This document shows, piece by piece, positions 2 through 23,947 of a DNA stretch of 40,321 nt. The notes under the pieces are model-generated. The model was given only the letters and a program-made list of their open reading frames with translations. It did not search any database and had not been told where the DNA came from. The first letter of the stretch is position 1. Each line of letters opens with the position of its first letter. The position numbers and the translations under genes are program-made. Source of the DNA: Candidatus Magasanikiibacteriota bacterium (GTDB lineage Bacteria > Patescibacteriota > Patescibacteriia > Magasanikbacterales > UBA922); NCBI GenBank assembly GCA_018061685.1, contig JAGOTR010000004.1, positions 1 through 40,321 on the forward strand, read 5' to 3'.

Positions 2-412
2 GTGGTCGCTCAAACACTCCAAGATCAAATTAACGCGCAAATAGGTGCAGGTGCGCGTGCGGCAGAAATTGGTTCCGCCGTTCCACCACAGCTTATTATT
101 GCAGAGCTTATCAAAACAATGCTTACCTTGGTGGGAACTATTTTTATGATTTTGATTCTCTATGGGGGATATTTACTCCTCACAGATAGAGGTGAAGGTG
201 AAAAGTGGGAAAAAGGAATCAAAACAATTCGAACATCTATTGTTGGGGTACTTATTGTGCTCGGTGCATATAGTATTACTCTATTTATAGGACGTGCATT
301 GATGCAAAATGTATATGGAAAAGAATATCAAAACAGAAATATTAGAATAAATTGTTCGGCGATTCGAGTTATTCAAGGAGATGGTTGTGAATCGGTTCGA
401 GTTATTAATTAA
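2..412 (+). CDS. TrbC/VirB2-like pilin-type membrane protein (5' truncated by window edge)
   Basis: This is a small membrane protein of 136 visible residues with two predicted membrane helices, at about residues 30-60 and 79-98. They are separated by a short charged loop containing a YGGY motif. The same architecture (helix, YGGY, charged loop, helix ending SITLF) appears in the next gene, so the two are tandem paralogues. This resembles the VirB2/TrbC pilin-like families that are common as clusters in CPR genomes. The reading frame is open to the first base of the window and no signal peptide is visible, while the paralogue has one, so the true start probably lies upstream. The last 40 residues hold two cysteines, which could form a disulfide outside the cell. 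The role as a pilin or secretion component is inferred from architecture only. Confidence 0.6.
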   Translation: MVAQTLQDQINAQIGAGARAAEIGSAVPPQLIIAELIKTMLTLVGTIFMILILYGGYLLLTDRGEGEKWEKGIKTIRTSIVGVLIVLGAYSITLFIGRALMQNVYGKEYQNRNIRINCSAIRVIQGDGCESVRVIN

Positions 413-418
413 TTTTTT

Positions 419-931
419 ATGCAAAAAAAAATACTACAATCTATTTTTTTAGGAATAAGTGCGATAGTCTGTTTGATTCAACTCGGATCTCCGGTGGGAG
501 CATACGCACAATATACAGACGATCTTAATACCCAACTTGGCGCAACCGTTGGAAAAAACGGGGCCGATATTGCAGAATCAAAAGACCCTCGATTGGTGGC
601 TGCATTACTTATTCGCACAACACTGAGTATTCTTGGAACACTTTTTTTGGTCTATGCCGTGTATGGGGGCTATCAAATTATGACAGCAGCAGGAGACTCG
701 GACAAAGTAACAAAAGGAAAAACCACAATAGTTCGGGCATCCTTAGGCCTATTAATTATTTTGAGTTCGTATAGTATCACTTTGTTTGTGACAACCAAAT
801 TACTTCCGCTCGAAACCCAGCGACAAGGGGCAACTGAACCAGATGAACCATTTGATGCTATTGAGAGAGGACAAAGAGAATACCTCAATACAGACCCCCT
901 AAACGAAGATATTAATGTGTGGAGAAACTAA
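419..931 (+). CDS. TrbC/VirB2-like pilin-type membrane protein
   Basis: A 170-residue protein. An N-terminal signal peptide (about residues 1-30, ending near AYA-Q) is followed by two membrane helices at about 63-85 and 104-125. These bracket a charged loop with YGGY and a Gly-Asp-Ser-Asp turn. The C-terminal 45 residues are hydrophilic and acidic. It is a paralogue of the gene immediately upstream: the spacing is 6 nt and the YGGY and SITLF motifs are shared, so the two are probably co-transcribed. The layout matches VirB2/TrbC pilin-like subunits, which are cleaved and inserted in the membrane. No ATPase or assembly gene of such a system lies in this window, so function stays at family level. 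A strong hairpin terminator begins at the stop codon. Confidence 0.65.
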   Translation: MQKKILQSIFLGISAIVCLIQLGSPVGAYAQYTDDLNTQLGATVGKNGADIAESKDPRLVAALLIRTTLSILGTLFLVYAVYGGYQIMTAAGDSDKVTKGKTTIVRASLGLLIILSSYSITLFVTTKLLPLETQRQGATEPDEPFDAIERGQREYLNTDPLNEDINVWRN

Positions 932-2489: not shown

Positions 2490-3233
2490 CTATTTTTCTC
2501 CCATTCTTTCAAACGCTCGTAATACCTCAAGTGGCATGGCAAAAATTACAGTATTTGATTGGTCTGAACTTAAATCATTAATAGTCGACAGTGTGCGTAA
2601 ATGCAATGCACCGGGGGATTCCGATAACATACGTGCAGCTTGTGCAATGTTTTCTGCAGCCAATAATTCTCCACTTGCTTTAATAATTACCGATCGTTTT
2701 TCACGCTCTGCCTCGGCTTGCTTGGCAATGACCCGTTGCATATCATCTGGTAAAATCACATCTTTTAATTCTACTGTCTGTACTTTAATTCCCCAAGGGT
2801 CCGTTGCAATATCTACAATTTGTTTAATTTTTTTTGCAGCCTGCTCTCTGTTTGCCAGTAATTCATCTAATTCAAGCTCTCCAACCACATTTCGCATGGT
2901 TGTTTGGGCTAATTGACTCACCGCATACCAAAAATTTTCTACTTCCAAAATTGCTCGTGCAGCATCTGATACTTGATAGTAAATAACAGCATTAATTTTT
3001 GCCGAGATATTATCTTTGGTAATCGCTTCTTGGAGTGGTACGTCAACTGCTTTGACCCGAATATCTACTTTTGTCATGCTTTGAATAATAGGCAAAATAA
3101 TACGCCAACCCGGTTGTACTGTTCCAATATATTTTCCTAATTGAAATTTAACCCCTCGTTGGTATTGATTTACTTGGCGAATGCTAATAAGTAAAATAAA
3201 AATTACTATACAAATAAGAATAAATATAGGCAT
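2490..3233 (-). CDS. SPFH/stomatin-like membrane protein (slipin)
   Basis: A 247-residue protein of the SPFH (band 7) family. A single N-terminal membrane helix (residues 1-16) is followed by the stomatin signature around YQRGVKFQLGKY...QPGWRIILP. The SPFH core runs to about residue 170, with the conserved WGIKV-x-x-V-x-L-x-D block. A charged helical stretch then follows (EAEREKRSVIIKASGE), typical of slipin oligomerisation. Family members assemble on the cytoplasmic face of membranes and organise microdomains or regulate membrane proteases. No NfeD or protease partner is adjacent, so a specific role cannot be given. A sigma70-like promoter lies upstream. Confidence 0.88.
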   Translation of the reverse strand: MPIFILICIVIFILLISIRQVNQYQRGVKFQLGKYIGTVQPGWRIILPIIQSMTKVDIRVKAVDVPLQEAITKDNISAKINAVIYYQVSDAARAILEVENFWYAVSQLAQTTMRNVVGELELDELLANREQAAKKIKQIVDIATDPWGIKVQTVELKDVILPDDMQRVIAKQAEAEREKRSVIIKASGELLAAENIAQAARMLSESPGALHLRTLSTINDLSSDQSNTVIFAMPLEVLRAFERMGEK

Positions 3234-3666: not shown

Positions 3667-3682
3667 TGTTTCACGTGAAACA
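3667..3682. promoter_or_regulatory. parS site 1 (ParB-binding centromere sequence)
   Basis: TGTTTCACGTGAAACA is identical to the classic 16-bp parS consensus and is a perfect palindrome. It is the first of three in 455 bp. Confidence 0.92.
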
Positions 3683-3859
3683 TCGGTACTGCTTTTATTT
3701 AATCAACCCACTTTTTGAAAAATAGGACTTAAAAATAAATTCAGCGCTAACCGTAGCTTACGAGATATTTTTATATATTTCAAAATTAAGTTATTTTTAT
3801 TCAAAATCTATAGTCAATAAAGTAGATTATAGATTAAGAGTAATTAAAAAATTTTAAAA

Positions 3860-3875
3860 TGTTTCACATGAAACA
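3860..3875. promoter_or_regulatory. parS site 2 (one mismatch)
   Basis: TGTTTCACATGAAACA differs from the parS consensus at a single central base. It lies 193 bp from site 1. Confidence 0.82.
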
Positions 3876-3886
3876 GTATTTTATAC

Positions 3887-3912
3887 ATTTGTATACACTT
3901 GTGTATACAAAT
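3887..3912. repeat. 26-bp palindrome containing two TGTATACA octamers
   Basis: Arms ATTTGTATACAC (3887-3898) and GTGTATACAAAT (3901-3912) are perfect inverted repeats around TT. The octamer TGTATACA, itself palindromic, recurs four times at 8011-8221. It resembles a dimeric protein-binding site placed between parS sites 2 and 3. Confidence 0.6.
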
Positions 3913-4105
3913 TAAATTTTATTTGTAATTACAGTATAAAAAAACAACTTTTTAATGTACATTTTATATAAAAAATAGTACTACTCAATAATACATCATT
4001 TTTAAACAAAAATCTCAGACCATCCAGCTGAAAGACAAAACAAAGCTCAACAGTATTGCCTACTCATACAACAAAAAATAGCGTGGACATCCTACAGAAA
4101 CCATT

Positions 4106-4121
4106 TGTTTCACGTGAAACA
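4106..4121. promoter_or_regulatory. parS site 3
   Basis: A second exact TGTTTCACGTGAAACA, 246 bp from site 2. The sites are non-coding and clustered, as expected of an origin-proximal centromere. Confidence 0.92.
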
Positions 4122-4490: not shown

Positions 4491-4494
4491 ATTG

Positions 4495-4566
4495 TGACCC
4501 CACCACGAATCGAACGTGGATCAAGAACTTAGGACGTTCTTGTTTTATCCATTAAACTACAGGGTC
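4495..4566 (-). tRNA. tRNA-Arg (CCT)
   Basis: The minus-strand cloverleaf has acceptor GACCCTG paired with TGGGGTC, D-stem GTTT/AAAC, anticodon stem AGAAC/GTTCT with loop GTCCTAA, and T-stem CCACG/CGTGG. The anticodon CCT reads AGG. Discriminator is A (4495) and CCA is not encoded. Confidence 0.93.
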
Positions 4567-4759: not shown

Positions 4760-5890
4760 ATGCAAGTATTCATTGTTACACTGCTCACACTTCTCCTTAT
4801 TCTCGCTGCCGGTGCAATCTTTTTTTTATACAAAAAATTAGATCGTGCAGAAAGCACTACCGAAGACGCATCTGAAAAACAATCCTTTTTGTTGCTCCAA
4901 AATCAACTTCAGGACCTTATTAAAACCGTGGATCAAAAAATGTCTGATACCAATAAACAAGTTTCCAACACTGAACGACATTTACACCAAACACTTCAAG
5001 AGCAATTTACACAAAATACTCGGCTTATTAGTGGTATTACGAGTGAAAGTAGCAAAATAATCGCTCAAATAACAGAAAAATTGACCACATTAGACAAAAC
5101 AAACCAACAGGTAATCGGTTTTTCCGAACAATTAGGTAATTTAGAAAAAGTACTTACAAGTCAAAAACAGCGTGGCAATTTAGGAGAAGCCGGATTACAG
5201 CTCGTATTGGAAAACATGCTTCCACCCACAGCATTTTCTTTTCAGTATCAATTTGAGGATGGAGATACGGTAGATGCAGCTATTTTCACCAAAGATGGCA
5301 TTATTCCCGTAGACGCTAAATTTTCTCTTGAAAATTACACAAAAATTCTACAAGAGAAAGACGAAAATAGAAAAGAACAATTAGAAAAAGACTTTAAAAA
5401 CGATTTAAAAAAACGAATTGACGAAACAGCTAAGTATATTAAGCCAAAATATGGCACCATGGACTTTGCATTCATGTTTATCCCTGCCGAAGCAATTTAT
5501 TATGATTTACTGGTAAATGAGGTAGGTGCCGTCAAAGTCAATACAAGAAATTTGATTGAATATGCCTTTAAAGAAAAAAAAGTGATTATTGTATCACCAA
5601 CCACCTTCGCAGCATACCTCCAAACAGTTCTCCAGGGCCTACGAGCACTTCAAATAGAAGAAGGGGCAAAAGATATAAGAAAAAATGTAGAAATGCTAGG
5701 AAAGCATATCAATGCCTATGATTCATTTATGAAAAAATTAGGCGGCAGCCTTGGCACAACGGTAAACCATTACAATACGGCATACAAAGAATTAGCAAAA
5801 ATAGATAAAGATATTACTCGAATAACAGCAGGCGAACGGTTCATCGATCCATTACAGCTAGACACCCCTCAACAAGATGATGCTGCATAA
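4760..5890 (+). CDS. rmuC: RmuC family protein
   Basis: A 376-residue RmuC (DUF195) protein, a family linked to limiting recombination at inverted repeats and fold-related to nucleases. An N-terminal membrane helix (about residues 2-22) is followed by a long coiled coil (about 30-130). The conserved catalytic-like domain runs from about 130 to 340. Visible family blocks include QRGNLGE near 137, DAAIF and VDAKFSLENY, and MFIPAEAIYYDL and VIIVSPTTFAAYL. The acidic C-terminal tail is variable. The ATG at 4760 gives the membrane anchor at once and is preferred. It is separated from rpsT by a dedicated promoter, so the two are probably independent units. Confidence 0.92.
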   Translation: MQVFIVTLLTLLLILAAGAIFFLYKKLDRAESTTEDASEKQSFLLLQNQLQDLIKTVDQKMSDTNKQVSNTERHLHQTLQEQFTQNTRLISGITSESSKIIAQITEKLTTLDKTNQQVIGFSEQLGNLEKVLTSQKQRGNLGEAGLQLVLENMLPPTAFSFQYQFEDGDTVDAAIFTKDGIIPVDAKFSLENYTKILQEKDENRKEQLEKDFKNDLKKRIDETAKYIKPKYGTMDFAFMFIPAEAIYYDLLVNEVGAVKVNTRNLIEYAFKEKKVIIVSPTTFAAYLQTVLQGLRALQIEEGAKDIRKNVEMLGKHINAYDSFMKKLGGSLGTTVNHYNTAYKELAKIDKDITRITAGERFIDPLQLDTPQQDDAA

Positions 5891-7923: not shown

Positions 7924-7951
7924 GAAAAAATAAAAAAATCGATTCAAAGAG

Positions 7952-8000
7952 ATCCCGCCCTTCGCTTTTTATAAGCAATATAGGACGCGGGATTTTTTTG
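7952..8000 (+). terminator. Terminator of doxX
   Basis: ATCCCGC (7952-7958) pairs with GCGGGAT (7987-7993), followed by a T-run. Confidence 0.8.
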
Positions 8001-8286
8001 TATATACTATTGTATACAAAGTATTTTCAAATAAAATTATTATTTTTTTATATAAAAAAACATACTTTTCACCATATCACACACTTTTCACATGGTTTTC
8101 CCTATATATATCCACATATACATACATATTTTGTATACACTATTGTATACATTGTGGATAACTATGTGCATAAAACCACCTAAAAGTGGATAACTTTAGC
8201 AAAATAGTGTGTTTGTATACACAATTTTATACATTTTTTATAAAAAAAACATATTATTTAGCTAGTTTAAGCTAAAACTTAACATA
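8000..8286. other. AT-rich region with DnaA boxes and TGTATACA repeats
   Basis: No gene. On the minus strand there are two exact TTATNCACA-type DnaA boxes at 8153-8161 (TTATCCACA) and 8165-8173 (TTATGCACA), plus a one-mismatch box at 8185-8193. The plus strand has another one-mismatch box at 8108-8116. Four copies of the palindromic octamer TGTATACA occur at 8011, 8132, 8144 and 8214. Together with long A/T runs this looks like a DnaA-binding locus, 11 kb from dnaA. It could be an auxiliary origin element or a DnaA-titration site. Confidence 0.55.
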
Positions 8287-8315
8287 TTGACAAAATGTGC
8301 AAAATATGCTATGAT
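8287..8315 (+). promoter_or_regulatory. Strong promoter of the 8.3-kb structured RNA
   Basis: TTGACA (8287-8292), 17 bases and TATGAT (8310-8315). Transcription would start near 8322. Confidence 0.85.
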
Positions 8316-8321
8316 ATACAC

Positions 8322-8736
8322 AGATCATTCACAAAGCAATGAGGTATGTTCTTCGCAACAATGTTGTGGGGGACATTTCCCTCTTTTACTGCCTCATCTT
8401 TACCAAACTGACCTGTTATCTTCTCTGTTCTTTTAAAAAAGCAACAAAAAACAAACAGTCTCAGTAAAAAACACTTCTTCGGGAGAGTGCTCCCACACAA
8501 ATACACATACAAAAACAAATGTAAGAGGCAAGTTTGGTAATTTGGTAGCCCCAACCATATACATCATTGTGATTCGTCCGTGATGTTTCGGGGTTTCACC
8601 TTTGCAGGCTGGTAGAAGAGTTCCGTCGTCCCAGACGGATTGTTCTACACATCACTTGATGCGTATGACACGACTCTTGGGACAACCAAAGGGCCCGCCC
8701 TTACATTCTTGTACCATGGGGCGTTGGCCCTTTTTT
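8322..8736 (+). ncRNA. Structured RNA of about 410 nt, family not recognised
   Basis: A consensus promoter, no convincing protein frame and a strong terminator define a transcript of about 410 nt. Several long-range helices are visible. ATGAGG 8339-8344 pairs with CCTCAT 8392-8397. A 10-bp helix joins 8400-8409 to 8531-8540. GTGATGT 8580-8586 pairs with ACATCAC 8649-8655, which stacks directly on GTAGAA 8612-8617 with TTCTAC 8643-8648. That is capped by CCGTC 8623-8627 with GACGG 8634-8638. The size suits RNase P RNA or tmRNA, but I find no P4/CR-V motifs and no tRNA-like ends or tag frame. A housekeeping RNA with divergent sequence, or a lineage-specific RNA, are both possible. Confidence 0.65.
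8689..8736 (+). terminator. Terminator of the structured RNA
   Basis: GGGCC (8691-8695) pairs with GGCCC (8726-8730), with an inner GCCC/GGGC pairing, followed by TTTTTT (8731-8736). It lies immediately before the dksA-like promoter. Confidence 0.88.
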
Positions 8737-8743
8737 ATTTGTC

Positions 8744-8772
8744 TTGCAAAAGGTGTCGATTTCATATATAAT
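8744..8772 (+). promoter_or_regulatory. Promoter of the DksA/TraR-like gene
   Basis: TTGCAA (8744-8749), 17 bases and TATAAT (8767-8772). The leader is about 30 nt. Confidence 0.8.
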
Positions 8773-8809
8773 AAGCTCGTTTTGTTTTTACACTGTAATT
8801 TTACCCACT

Positions 8810-9202
8810 ATGGCTGCAGCAAGCACTTCACCATTTTCATCATCTTTTTTGGCACAAATTAAACAAGCTCTTGAAGAGCAAAGAACCCGCCTTACCAAAG
8901 AACTGGCTGGTGTTGCTGTACCCGGAGGAAAAAACGGAGAATTCTCTGCAGACTTTCCTGAGTTTGGGGACAAAGAAGATGAAAATGCAAAAGAAATTGA
9001 ACAATATACCACCAATAAACCGCTCGAGATGACGCTTGAAAAAGAGCTTGTTGACATTGAAAAATCATTGGAACGGCTTACAAACAACACCTATGGTATT
9101 TGTAAATATTGCCATAATGCAATAGACGAAAAACGGTTATTAGCGAGGCCAACATCATCTTCTTGTGTGAGCTGCAAAAAAACACTAACCAACGAATACT
9201 AA
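8810..9202 (+). CDS. DksA/TraR-family C4 zinc-finger protein
   Basis: A 130-residue member of the DksA/TraR family, whose members reach into the RNA polymerase secondary channel or act as related zinc-finger proteins. A helical N-terminal half (about residues 10-90) precedes a C4 zinc finger with C98-x2-C101 and C119-x2-C122 (GICKYCHNAI...CVSC). The gap between helices carries many acidic residues (EFGDKEDENAKE). The frame extends upstream to 8744, but that extension overlaps the promoter, so the ATG at 8810 is chosen. lspA follows within 12 nt and the pair is likely one operon, an arrangement seen in other bacteria. Confidence 0.88.
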   Translation: MAAASTSPFSSSFLAQIKQALEEQRTRLTKELAGVAVPGGKNGEFSADFPEFGDKEDENAKEIEQYTTNKPLEMTLEKELVDIEKSLERLTNNTYGICKYCHNAIDEKRLLARPTSSSCVSCKKTLTNEY

Positions 9203-9213
9203 ACCATATTCCT

Positions 9214-9687
9214 GTGGAGCACGCACTCACTCCGCACATACAAAAACGCCTCTTATACGCTATTGGTATAAGTGGCTTTTTTTTATTTCTTGATCAAGTA
9301 TGTAAATACCTGGTACGACAAGACGTATCGTTTGCTTGGTATATTATTGATCATATTTTCGGATGGGAATATTTTGCAAATCCCGGTGTTGCCTTTGGCA
9401 TACCCATACCCAACACGGTTATTATTATACTCACCCCACTCCTATTATTCGGGTTATTGTATTACTTTATACACACCACACATACCAATTGTGTATCAAT
9501 CTTAGGCGGCTCGCTTATTATATTGGGCGCAATTTCTAATTTTATCGATCGCGTATTGTTTGGCGTTACCATAGACTACATTCGAATTTTTACATCGGTA
9601 GCAAATATTGCCGATGGTATGATTATTGCGGGAGTACTGTTATTTTTGTATGATCAATATATTGGAAGTATGCGGATATACAGATAA
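9214..9687 (+). CDS. lspA: Lipoprotein signal peptidase (signal peptidase II)
   Basis: A 157-residue aspartic protease with four membrane helices that removes signal peptides from prolipoproteins. Conserved boxes are all present: D27-x3-K31 in helix one, NPGVAFG at 56-62, GAISNFIDR at 105-113 with catalytic D112, DYIRI, and NIADGMI with catalytic D134. The start is uncertain. GTG at 9214 follows the upstream stop and gives normal length, while a TTG at 9163 would overlap the DksA-like gene by 40 nt. The 3' end, including the stop codon, overlaps the left arm of the 148-bp palindromic element. A plausible substrate is the lipoprotein-like protein at 11372. Confidence 0.93.
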   Translation: MEHALTPHIQKRLLYAIGISGFFLFLDQVCKYLVRQDVSFAWYIIDHIFGWEYFANPGVAFGIPIPNTVIIILTPLLLFGLLYYFIHTTHTNCVSILGGSLIILGAISNFIDRVLFGVTIDYIRIFTSVANIADGMIIAGVLLFLYDQYIGSMRIYR

Positions 9688-13638: not shown

Positions 13639-14412
13639 ATGTTTTTAGAATCTCACCTCACAGAAATAGGATTTACCCAAAAAGAAGCCCAAGTCTATTT
13701 GGCCGCTCTTGAAATTGGTACAGCCTCTGTACAAGAACTCGCCACAAAAAGCATGCTGAAACGACCAACGGTGTATGTCATTTTGGAACAACTCAAACAA
13801 AAAGGCTTTATTCAAGAAGAAAAAAAAGGAAAGGGGAGTCACTATAGGGCAGCAAACCCAGACGTACTCAAACGAAAAACCCAAGAACAATCTGCAAAAA
13901 TAAGTGAAGCCATGCCCTTTTTACAAATGATGTATAAAAAAGATCAAGGCAAACCCCATGTAGACGTGTACGAAGGGGTTGAGGGGATAAAGCAAGTGTA
14001 TTTTGATTTAGTGTGGAAAAGTAACACAGAAATCTTATTTTTTTCTTCTATTCGAAAAACCTACGAATCTATCCCTGGGCTTTTGGAGTATTGGTTAGAA
14101 GCCGGGCTCACGCACCCCAACTTTCAAAAACAAATGCGAGAATTTATTAATCCCGAACCAACGGATATTGCGTATGCCAAAAAAGCCATGAAGCAAAACC
14201 CTGATCTCGCCGTGCGAATGATTCCAAAACAAAGTCCGTTCCAATTTGTGGGAACAGATAACGCCATTTTTGAAGACAAAATTATGATGGTTTGTTTTGA
14301 AGAAAAATTATTTACCACGGTGATTCAAAGTAAACCCATTGCCGACAGTCTTCGGGTACTCTATGAACTCGCCTGGAGTACGGCTACACCCCTTGAATCC
14401 GTCTTCGCCTGA
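13639..14412 (+). CDS. TrmB-family transcriptional regulator 1
   Basis: A 257-residue TrmB-like regulator. The N-terminal winged helix-turn-helix (about residues 5-75) shows the family pattern: LTEIGFTQKEAQVYLAALEIGTASVQELA, recognition-helix region KRPTVYVILEQLKQKGFI, and a wing with HYRAANP. A linker helix leads into an effector domain (about 105-250). It contains PHVDVYEGVEGIKQVYFDL and a NTEILFFSS strand, shared with the paralogue at 23192. The promoter suggests a leaderless mRNA. It is divergent from the GC-rich island and convergent with the M23 peptidase gene. The last codons and stop overlap a GC-rich repeat unit (14399-14430). Its ligand is unknown. Confidence 0.85.
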   Translation: MFLESHLTEIGFTQKEAQVYLAALEIGTASVQELATKSMLKRPTVYVILEQLKQKGFIQEEKKGKGSHYRAANPDVLKRKTQEQSAKISEAMPFLQMMYKKDQGKPHVDVYEGVEGIKQVYFDLVWKSNTEILFFSSIRKTYESIPGLLEYWLEAGLTHPNFQKQMREFINPEPTDIAYAKKAMKQNPDLAVRMIPKQSPFQFVGTDNAIFEDKIMMVCFEEKLFTTVIQSKPIADSLRVLYELAWSTATPLESVFA

Positions 14413-19078: not shown

Positions 19079-20458
19079 ATGACCAACTATGAAATTTGGC
19101 AAGCCGTACTTGCCGATTTTGAACTTAAACTCTCGAAGGCTAACTTTACGACCTGGTTTCATAATACAGGAATAGGTGAATACGATGCGGGGAAAATTAC
19201 CATTTGTGTTCCTAATACCTTTACCAAAAGTTGGCTAGAAAAAAAATATAATGCCGATTTAGCCAAAACAATAGAACGGGTCACCGGAAAACCCGTAAAA
19301 CGCATAGAGTACAAGGTTGAAAACATGAAAAATATCACAGAACAAGAATGTATTGTACAACAAGCCCCTGTGGTTTCAACTATTCAAACACCCATATATT
19401 CTCAAACCACTCAAAAAGCCACCCAATTTGGGCTCAACCCAAAATACACGTTTGATACCTTTATTGTTGGAAAAGGCAATGAATTAGCCCACGCAGCAGC
19501 CCAAGCCGTGGCCGATCGGCCAGGTGAAGCCTATAACCCATTATTTATCTATGGAGACGTTGGGCTAGGCAAAACCCATTTGCTCCAGGCTATTGGGCAT
19601 ACACTACTTGAAAAAAATCCTCAGACAAAAATTTTATACGTCAGTTCAGAAAAATTTACCAATGAATTTGTGGCTGCGGTAAAGCAAGGGAAAGCAAAAG
19701 AATTTAAAGACCGATACCGCACGGTAGACCTATTATTAATTGATGATATTCAATTTATAGGAGGAAAAGAACAAACCCAAGAAGAATTTTTCCATACATT
19801 TAATGAATTACACCAACTCGGCAAACAAGTAGTCATGACGAGTGACCGACCACCTAAGGCTATTCCCGCTCTTGAAGATCGGTTACGCAGCAGATTTGAA
19901 TGGGGAATGATTGCCGATGTGTCTGCCCCAGACCTTGAAACACGCGTTGCCATTTTACAAACCAAATGCCAAGAAAAAGGGCTCACTCTTTCTCAAGAAG
20001 TATTAGAGTTGGTTGCATCAACAGTACAAAGTAATATCCGAGAGCTTGAAGGCGCATTAAATAAAATTTCTGTATTTCACCAAATAAAAAATAGCGTGGC
20101 TTCTCTTGAGAGTGTGAAGTCTATGCTGGCAAGCTTTGAAAGCCAATCCATGAAAAAATCCGTTACCCCGAGGCAAATTATTAGCACGGTCGGGTCATTT
20201 TATGATATCGAAATAGACCAAATTACAGGTAAAAGTCGTGAAAAGAAAATATCACTACCACGACAAATTATTATGTATTTGCTTCGTACAGAGCTCCAAA
20301 TGTCGTACCCCGCGATAGGAAATGAATTGGGAGGGCGAGATCATACCACAGCAATCCATGCACAAACAAAAATAGAAGAATTATTTAAAGAAGACATGAA
20401 AATAAAACAAGATATTGAACTTATTAAACAACAATTATACGCACAAAGTATTAAATAA
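19079..20458 (+). CDS. dnaA: Chromosomal replication initiator DnaA
   Basis: A 459-residue DnaA. Domain I (about 1-70) is followed by a short domain II. The AAA+ domain III has Walker A GDVGLGKT (159-166), Walker B LLLIDD (218-223), sensor I in MTSDRPPKAIPALEDRL and the arginine-finger region RLRSRFEWG. Domain IV ends with the DNA-binding signature GGRDHTTAIHA (418-428). All ATPase and DNA-contact residues appear intact. It binds TTATNCACA boxes, of which exact copies occur at 18979 and 8153-8173, with one-mismatch copies near 20.5 kb. The ATG at 19079 lacks a clear SD. Confidence 0.97.
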   Translation: MTNYEIWQAVLADFELKLSKANFTTWFHNTGIGEYDAGKITICVPNTFTKSWLEKKYNADLAKTIERVTGKPVKRIEYKVENMKNITEQECIVQQAPVVSTIQTPIYSQTTQKATQFGLNPKYTFDTFIVGKGNELAHAAAQAVADRPGEAYNPLFIYGDVGLGKTHLLQAIGHTLLEKNPQTKILYVSSEKFTNEFVAAVKQGKAKEFKDRYRTVDLLLIDDIQFIGGKEQTQEEFFHTFNELHQLGKQVVMTSDRPPKAIPALEDRLRSRFEWGMIADVSAPDLETRVAILQTKCQEKGLTLSQEVLELVASTVQSNIRELEGALNKISVFHQIKNSVASLESVKSMLASFESQSMKKSVTPRQIISTVGSFYDIEIDQITGKSREKKISLPRQIIMYLLRTELQMSYPAIGNELGGRDHTTAIHAQTKIEELFKEDMKIKQDIELIKQQLYAQSIK

Positions 20459-20760: not shown

Positions 20761-21888
20761 ATGCAATTTACCTGTACGAAAGAAAACATTGCACATGGAC
20801 TCCATATTGTTTGTGGCTTAGCAAGTAAACCAAGTCACTTACCAATTCTTTCTCATATTCGTATTACAGCAACAGAATCGGGAGTCACATTAGTTGCAAC
20901 AAATTTAGAAGTCGCTATTCGTGCATTTGTTCGGGCTAAAGTAGAGGTGCCTGGTGAATGGACTGTGCCAGCAAAAACATTGTTAGATTATGTATCGTTG
21001 TTACCTGAAGAACAAATACGCATGTCGCTTGAAGGAACTGAATTGATTGTGTCGTGTGGACGAACAAGTACCAAAATAAAAGGTATCACTGCCGAAGAAT
21101 ATCCAGTTATTCCAGATGTAGAAGAAGATGCCCCGTACTTACTCGGAGCTGAAGTATTGAAGCAATCACTCGCTCAGGTTGCGTTTGCTGCTGCAAAAAA
21201 CGAAATTCGTCCAGAATTGTCTGGTATTTATATGGGATGCTTTGTTCGAGAAAAACAAGGAATCTTTTTTGCCGCAACTGATTCGTATCGGTTAGCTGAA
21301 CGATTTGTTCCTCTTACCACGGAAGGGCAAACGAGAGAGGTGATTATTCCCGGAAAAACAGCAATGGAATTTATTCGTCTTATTGGATTTTCTTTGGGAA
21401 AAGACGGTGTGGAACAAGATGTTCGTATTTGGCTCAGCCAAACACAGATTGCTCTTCGTTTTGATACATTTGAAGTGACTTCTCGATTGGTAGATGGAAC
21501 GTATCCTGATTATACACAAATTATTCCACAGGCATTTCAAACCACAGTGGTATTTTCTAAAGATGCCTTGGTGAATAGTATGAAAGCATCAAGCCTGTTC
21601 ACTACAACGGGCATTAACGCGGTTTCTTTGGTTATTAAGTCAGATGAGGGTGCGGTGACCGTTTCGTCAACCAGCACGCAAACTGGGGCCCATGAGACGG
21701 TATTGGATACGGAAGTGATAGGTGTGGATAATGATATTGTGTTGAATCACAAATATGTATTAGAAGGTATGCAGCATGTAACCGATGGGGATGTTGAATT
21801 AAAAATGAATGATAAAGAATCTCCTTGCTTGTTTTTGTCTAAAACGAGTGATGCGTATAAGTATATTGTGATGCCTATTCGGCAGTAG
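20761..21888 (+). CDS. dnaN: DNA polymerase III beta subunit (sliding clamp)
   Basis: A 375-residue beta clamp with three repeated domains of about 125 residues. Family blocks are visible: LPILSHIRITATESGVTLVATNLEVAI in domain one, ELSGIYMG and AATDSYRLAE in domain two, DGTYPDYTQIIP in the linker region. It ends YKYIVMPIRQ, equivalent to the conserved final MP(M/V)R. The clamp encircles DNA and tethers polymerase III; its loader subunit HolA is at 6.4 kb. It follows dnaA as usual, but recF and gyrB do not follow. Confidence 0.96.
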   Translation: MQFTCTKENIAHGLHIVCGLASKPSHLPILSHIRITATESGVTLVATNLEVAIRAFVRAKVEVPGEWTVPAKTLLDYVSLLPEEQIRMSLEGTELIVSCGRTSTKIKGITAEEYPVIPDVEEDAPYLLGAEVLKQSLAQVAFAAAKNEIRPELSGIYMGCFVREKQGIFFAATDSYRLAERFVPLTTEGQTREVIIPGKTAMEFIRLIGFSLGKDGVEQDVRIWLSQTQIALRFDTFEVTSRLVDGTYPDYTQIIPQAFQTTVVFSKDALVNSMKASSLFTTTGINAVSLVIKSDEGAVTVSSTSTQTGAHETVLDTEVIGVDNDIVLNHKYVLEGMQHVTDGDVELKMNDKESPCLFLSKTSDAYKYIVMPIRQ

Positions 21889-23191: not shown

Positions 23192-23947
23192 ATGAATCAA
23201 GAACAATCACTTCTCACCCAATTTGGCCTTTCCGATACCGAGGCGCGGCTTTATTTAGTATTAAATATAAAAGGAGAACTGGATGTACCCGGACTTGCAA
23301 AAGAGCTCTCGTTAAGTCGCACCGCCATATATACTGCACTCAATATATTGATGACACATCAATTAATTGATTATAGAAAGGCGGGGAGAAATGCGTATTA
23401 TCGAGCCGGGCATCCAAGCCAACTCACCACATTGTTAGAACAAAAAAAACGTCAGGAAACATTGTTGTATCAAGAAATGGAAGGGCTTATGAATACATTG
23501 GTCGGCCCGTACCATCTTGGGTGTAATAAACCGGGTGTGCGTATATTTGATGGCGAAGAAGAAATTAGAACAGCATTGTTTGCCACCCTTGAAAGTAAAG
23601 AAGAAATTTTAAGTTTTGTAGAAGGGGGTGTTATTGAAACGTATTTGAAAGAAATAAATCAGGAATATGTAAAAAAAAGAATTGAAAAAAAAGTGTATAA
23701 AAAAATTATTACCACCGATACGATTGCGGCACGAACACGTGAGCATGGATTGAATCGGAAAGAATTTACTGAGTTAAAATATATTAATCCAGAAAAATAT
23801 CCATTTAAAACGTCTGTTCAAATGTATGATACTTCTGTGTTATATTTAACGTTAACAGAAACATATAAAATGGGATTTTTAATTCAAAACGAGAGTATTG
23901 CTGAATTTCATAAATCAGTGTTTCGATTTATGTGGAAGGTATTATAA
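23192..23947 (+). CDS. TrmB-family transcriptional regulator 2
   Basis: A 251-residue paralogue of the regulator at 13639. The winged helix (about 8-75) reads LLTQFGLSDTEARLYLVLNIKGELDVPGLA, with recognition helix SRTAIYTALNILMTHQLI and a wing with YYRAGHP. The effector domain (about 110-250) includes PGVRIFDGEEEIRTALFATL and EEILSFVEGG. Four lysine-rich turns (KKRIEKKVYKK) differ from paralogue 1. It is divergent from GC-rich island 2 and lies 17 bp upstream of the 950-residue gene, with which it may be co-transcribed. The effector is unknown. Confidence 0.83.
   Translation: MNQEQSLLTQFGLSDTEARLYLVLNIKGELDVPGLAKELSLSRTAIYTALNILMTHQLIDYRKAGRNAYYRAGHPSQLTTLLEQKKRQETLLYQEMEGLMNTLVGPYHLGCNKPGVRIFDGEEEIRTALFATLESKEEILSFVEGGVIETYLKEINQEYVKKRIEKKVYKKIITTDTIAARTREHGLNRKEFTELKYINPEKYPFKTSVQMYDTSVLYLTLTETYKMGFLIQNESIAEFHKSVFRFMWKVL

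Follow-up and report, generated by a model that had tools for sequence, protein, structure and literature searches.

Does the non-coding DNA at 3667-4121 of this stretch, which contains three closely similar 16-bp palindromes, represent the centromere of the chromosome, and what is the second palindrome that lies among them? The whole stretch analysed, which has a length of 40,321 nucleotides and is termed the window, derives from a draft genome (G000) of 851,401 bases in 63 contigs, which is ~90% complete. It belongs to the Patescibacteria, very small and mostly uncultured organisms in which chromosome segregation and replication timing are largely unstudied. The three sites and the genes that define their surroundings are as follows.

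2490 to 3233, minus strand: gene for an SPFH/Band-7 protein, on the other flank of the parS block
3667 to 3682, no strand assigned: parS1, exact TGTTTCACGTGAAACA
3860 to 3875, no strand assigned: parS2, TGTTTCACATGAAACA, with one mismatch, a variant common among relatives
4106 to 4121, no strand assigned: parS3, exact TGTTTCACGTGAAACA
4494 to 4566, minus strand: tRNA-Arg(CCU), whose position next to the parS block is conserved in the order
4760 to 5890, plus strand: rmuC-like gene after tRNA-Arg(CCU), a frequent neighbour of the parS block
19079 to 20458, plus strand: dnaA, with the GC-skew minimum just beyond
20761 to 21888, plus strand: dnaN

The earlier note on this DNA reported two exact copies of a 16-mer and one single-mismatch copy in a non-coding block, and these copies are indeed located at 3667, 4106 and 3860, respectively. 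The window contains no further parS site with up to three mismatches beyond these three. When the whole draft genome of 851,401 bases is searched, parS1-3 are the sole copies with one mismatch or less, and the next-best match is a single site with two mismatches on another contig. The 16-mer is therefore not scattered around the chromosome but concentrated in one intergenic block, as the note proposed, and the sites of relatives cluster at the same locus. The number of exact copies of a 16-mer expected by chance in 851 kb at ~39% GC, calculated by hand from base composition, is ~3e-4, so that an exact pair can hardly be due to chance, again as proposed. No ORF of at least 80 aa is present around the parS sites between the Band-7 gene and tRNA-Arg(CCU)/rmuC. 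The possibility that the block encodes a structured RNA was rejected, because the Rfam matches are confined to tRNA-Arg and the folding z-scores are -0.30 and 0.24.

The 16-bp palindrome matches the parS consensus TGTTNCACGTGAAACA. The distance from parS1-3 to dnaA, given as about 15 kb in the note, is 15.0-15.4 kb by measurement, and the cumulative GC-skew minimum at ~21 kb of the window places the origin at dnaA-dnaN. The sites are thus within the origin domain, as they are in 26 genomes, in which the distance from parS to dnaA ranges from 5.5 to 42 kb with a median of 17 kb. Genes for TrmB-like HTH regulators flank dnaA-dnaN at 13639-14412 and 23192-23947, and two tandem genes at the left end of the window (2-931) are similar to those for type IV secretion pilin-like proteins.

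For comparison, 59 genomes were used, the own genome among them. A parS site with one mismatch or less is present in 27 of them. In the order, which is probably Magasanikbacterales, tRNA-Arg(CCU) is mostly close to the parS block. The genes for tRNA-Ala and rmuC are often neighbours as well, and the block is usually located upstream of rmuC. Many genomes without a near-exact parS contain degenerate copies, such as TGTTCCACGGGGAACA, AGTTCCATATGGAACT and TGTTTCTTGTGAAACA, at the usual locus. For the relaxed motif GTTnCnnnnGnAAC, the parS blocks give 105 matches (a total in which a few loci are counted twice), where shuffled sequences predict 2.6, and 149 kb of parB loci used as a control give one. 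These results indicate that the sequence of the parS sites drifts while their position is conserved, such that location outlasts sequence. The idea that half of the relatives have ParB without parS mostly does not hold; many of these genomes have degenerate parS at the same locus, and the contigs of others end there. Covariation of ParB specificity positions 179/201 with parS drift was also considered, but inspection by eye reveals no clear association. The genome of G006, which is 98% complete, contains parS-like palindromes and a copy of the second palindrome at the usual locus, yet a full ParB is not found in it. The number of parS copies is large in some arrays; eleven exact copies are located within 1 kb in G028 (L018), and five copies with a regular spacing of 48 bp are located at G173:C3:41546-41751.

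In a sample of 145 genomes of the phylum, HTH_ParB is present in 97 and absent from 48. The exact 14-bp parS core is present in 17 of the 97 genomes with HTH_ParB and in none of the 48 without it (Fisher p = 8e-4). Clusters of a symmetric parS variant, GTTCCACGTGGAAC, are observed in other lineages of Patescibacteria, with five copies in G143, three in G157, and two each in G115 and G170. ParB/parS systems are common on plasmids, and the sites could in principle have come from the partition system of an integrated plasmid or phage, but this origin is extremely improbable, because families across the order share the synteny of the block with tRNA-Arg(CCU) and its proximity to dnaA, and because 58 of the 59 genomes have a ParB_N score that exceeds the family cut-off.

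The note concluded that this organism keeps a ParB-parS system whose parA and parB lie outside the window, and a genome search for a parB-like gene bears this out. A parA-parB operon, in which the parA gene is immediately upstream of a full parB gene, is located on contig C47 (locus L005), and no other ParB-type gene is present in the genome. The ParB protein has the ParB_N, HTH_ParB and ParB_C domains. The ParA protein is a Walker-type ATPase of the AAA_31 family with the motif KGGVGKTT. SMC is encoded on contig C32. The ParB residues reported to contact parS are Q162, G170, K171, S172, R173, N178, G201 and R204 in Caulobacter numbering (PMC7383237), and all eight are retained in this ParB according to a residue count in the alignment with B. 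subtilis Spo0J and Noc.

The sites might instead be bound by Noc, as NBS-like sites, or by another ParB paralogue. The best NCBIfam score of this ParB is to the Noc model, but this score is 233 bits and the cut-off is 315. Specificity for NBS depends on the set Q-K-K-R, which consists of Q173, K179, K184 and R201 (PMC7383237). The residues of this ParB at the corresponding positions are R-T-D-G, which excludes Noc in place of ParB. In addition, the site agrees with the parS consensus, not with NBS, and the genome has a single ParB-type gene. Binding by Noc or a paralogue is therefore highly improbable. The three sites almost certainly form the parS centromere of the chromosome, which belongs to a canonical ParABS system and flanks the dnaA-dnaN origin on one side. 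By analogy with known families, ParB dimers would load at parS in a CTP-bound state and slide into the adjacent DNA, and ParA, together with SMC, would separate the newly replicated origins. This part of the locus is ordinary biology, a member of a known system.

Two points go beyond the note, namely that parAB lacks origin linkage in this group and that the block contains a further conserved palindrome. A par operon in the origin domain is usual, although not strictly defining, for chromosomal ParABS (PMC7022226). The distance from parB to dnaA is 169 kb in G044, 180 kb in G009 and 118 kb in G058. In G027, which is a single contig, ~225-300 kb separate parB from the skew minimum, which is masked; this distance corresponds to roughly 0.23-0.30 of the genome. 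Thus, parAB is not linked to the origin in these four genomes, in which linkage is measurable. The apparent lack of DnaA in G027 is an artefact, because 72 kb around the skew minimum are masked as N (G027:C1:816001-888000), and absence from this run around the origin is no evidence. In almost every relative, parAB adjoins tRNA-Leu(CAA) (L005 on C47; L032-L060), and its distance from dnaA, where it can be measured, sets it apart from the par operons of most bacteria, which are linked to the origin.

The second palindrome, P2, was spotted when the intergenic block was compared with those of relatives.

3888 to 3911, no strand assigned: P2 palindrome, TTTGTATACACTTGTGTATACAAA, between parS2 and parS3, with its centre ~32 bp from that of parS2

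P2 is a 24-bp palindrome with the consensus TTTGTATACACTAGTGTATACAAA, which recurs in several families and is apparently undescribed. Loci of the parS zone, which total 236 kb and some of which overlap, contain the sequence TGTATACA 59 times, and it is absent from 149 kb of parB loci. When whole genomes are searched for the 22-mer core of P2 with up to three mismatches, one to six copies are detected in 43 of the 59 genomes, and the reversed pattern is detected in none. Five copies are counted in the own genome at this threshold, two of which have no assigned position. When up to five mismatches are allowed, P2 is detected in 35 of the 43 parS blocks of the order and not found in the other eight; the reversed control gives no match, and none of 57 parB loci has one. 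The centre of P2 in the parS blocks is often 23-80 bp from that of parS. These searches began from a consensus of the same group of genomes, so that the site profiles are biased towards this consensus. The controls with the reversed pattern and the parB loci, together with the scan of 80 loci described below, guard against this bias only in part, because some of the 80 loci are from the same genomes. A hairpin or cruciform was rejected as an explanation of P2; its arms show only weak symmetric covariation, which fits a site for a protein dimer.

Further copies of P2 are located in the window together with DnaA-box-like sites.

7998 to 8019, no strand assigned: P2 copy that precedes dksA-like/lspA and differs from the 22-mer core at two positions
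8131 to 8152, no strand assigned: P2 copy with two mismatches
8213 to 8234, no strand assigned: weaker P2 copy with four mismatches
8108 to 8193, no strand assigned: four DnaA-box-like sites at 8108, 8153 (exact TTATCCACA), 8165 and 8185, among the P2 copies
8744 to 9202, plus strand: dksA/traR-type zinc-finger gene that follows the P2/DnaA-box element
9163 to 9687, plus strand: lspA (signal peptidase II)

The three P2 copies and four DnaA-box-like sites are contained in a long non-coding stretch, 7924-8743, and eight relatives have a comparable arrangement. Each of the nine dksA/lspA loci examined has one or more exact TTATCCACA no further than 200 bp from P2, the background being 0.2 box-like sites per 400 bp, and the number of TTATCCACA near P2 varies among these loci (G052, G022 and others). 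The dksA-like gene is present in eight of the nine P2/DnaA-box stretches; it is not found at that of G028, which a lspA-like ORF adjoins. An oriC at 8.0-8.3 kb was considered and rejected, because in four relatives both the GC-skew minima and further clusters of DnaA boxes indicate dnaA-dnaN. The cluster at 8.0-8.3 kb is therefore read as an accessory DnaA-box element, and the stretch at 7924-8743 is a candidate for a DnaA-titration or replication-control element.

P2 is also found at 15 loci between a gene for a small HTH protein and a divergent gene for a sigma-70-family (ECF-type) factor. A scan of a species-level genome collection for the HTH gene gives 80 loci, mostly from Ca. Magasanikbacteria and Uhrbacteria. 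A P2-like site with up to five mismatches is located upstream of the HTH gene at 70 of these loci, the reversed control is found at none of the 80, and no additional P2 copy is found elsewhere in them. The divergent sigma gene is present at 72 of the 80. At L214-L242 and L304-L383, a conserved pair is observed, in which the gene for an HTH_17/excisionase-like protein diverges from that for the ECF-type sigma factor, which is followed by one for a DUF5667 protein. The HTH protein also has an additional C-terminal motif that is conserved, GIGQxVxxWxIxNxLYSPNPK, and the GxGQ..W..N..SP pattern of its tail is invariant. In its predicted structure, a winged-HTH core is modelled with confidence (pLDDT ~90 for residues 11-60) and the tail is uncertain; a long helix is not predicted after the HTH, in the low-confidence part of the model. 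The fold of the core matches those of phage Xis, BldC and MerR-type domains and, at a lower rank, RacA and a plasmid Par protein, with Z values of 5.8-7.2 that may reflect merely a common arrangement. The match to RacA (chain 5i44_B, Z 5.8 over 60 residues) is tied with those to many MerR-type proteins. The sequence profiles give weak matches to excisionase/HTH_17 models (TIGR01764, PF12728), and the score to the BldC subfamily model is at best 14.1 bits, with a cut-off of 77.

This small HTH protein is probably the one that binds P2, as its conserved promoter site suggests. In the 12 genomes that have P2 both at parS and at the HTH promoter, the two sites differ by a mean of 2.14 letters within a genome, versus 2.91 letters for shuffled pairs (p < 1e-4) and 2.63 for pairs shuffled within a family (p = 4e-4), a resemblance that could partly stem from relatedness or base composition. 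In G027, P2 is absent at up to three mismatches, and the HTH gene is absent from 912 kb of unmasked sequence. The within-genome likeness of P2 and this double absence agree with one protein that may read all of the stations. An HTH gene of this kind is not found in the 372 kb of the own genome read besides the window.

The HTH protein would bind P2 at its own promoter, and would thereby repress or tune this promoter and that of the divergent ECF-type sigma gene. It would also bind P2 at the centromere and at the DnaA-box cluster, and would thus connect the origin domain. A rival explanation is that ordinary parS stands alone and P2 is the operator of a local regulator, which tunes nearby promoters without a role in the chromosome. 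P2 is strongest and most regular in the divergent promoter of the HTH and ECF-type sigma genes, as expected for an autoregulated factor, and the P2 copies at dksA/lspA are likewise upstream of genes. However, in the parS blocks P2 shares the non-coding DNA with the parS sites, often close to them, and in the window it is several hundred bp from any start codon. Moreover, P2 at dksA/lspA is always accompanied by DnaA boxes, which is not predicted for a plain operator. The operator explanation keeps a considerable share of the probability, somewhat short of half. A ParABS centromere with P2 bound by the HTH protein that connects the origin domain is, as a composite reading of the locus, likely. 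It is nearly an even question whether the role of P2 and the HTH protein extends beyond ordinary transcription control to the organisation of the chromosome. Perhaps P2 and the HTH protein even constitute an undescribed origin-domain system of Patescibacteria, which couples replication initiation with segregation physically or temporally, although we hold this only tentatively. For such coupling, a single protein of the MerR/excisionase fold would sit beside ParB at the centromere and on the DnaA-box element, and would autoregulate its synthesis.

An open-access literature search that combines ParB, parS and Patescibacteria gives no paper. The locus supplies exact centromere coordinates for Patescibacteria. 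The part worth following is the second conserved palindrome, which joins the centromere, the DnaA boxes and one regulator gene, and the ideas on P2 and parS are directly testable with purified proteins and short DNA.

The system resembles known chromosomal ParABS systems in the exact parS sites, their clustering in the origin region, the full set of ParB domains and contact residues, the adjacent ParA and the presence of SMC. It differs from them in that parAB, wherever its position can be measured, is distant from the origin (in three relatives, 118-180 kb from dnaA), and in that the parS sequence drifts strongly in some genomes while its location is conserved. The candidate element at 8.0-8.25 kb resembles datA/DARS as a conserved non-coding group of DnaA boxes that is separate from oriC, at a distance of roughly 10-25 kb from dnaA, but it is paired with P2 copies. 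The HTH protein shares the fold of its core and weak profile matches with BldC/excisionase-type (HTH_17) proteins, but it scores far under the BldC cut-off, and has an extra C-terminal motif and palindromic sites. The HTH protein may also be comparable to RacA of Bacillus subtilis, a small MerR-like winged-HTH protein, whose DNA-binding domain is among the fold matches and which has inverted-repeat sites around the origin alongside parS. In contrast to RacA, the HTH protein has no predicted long coiled coil, its tail being modelled with low confidence, and no sign of sporulation or polar anchoring is seen here. The P2 sites also differ from those of RacA, in that they are AT-rich, few in number, probably autoregulatory as well, and mixed with DnaA boxes.
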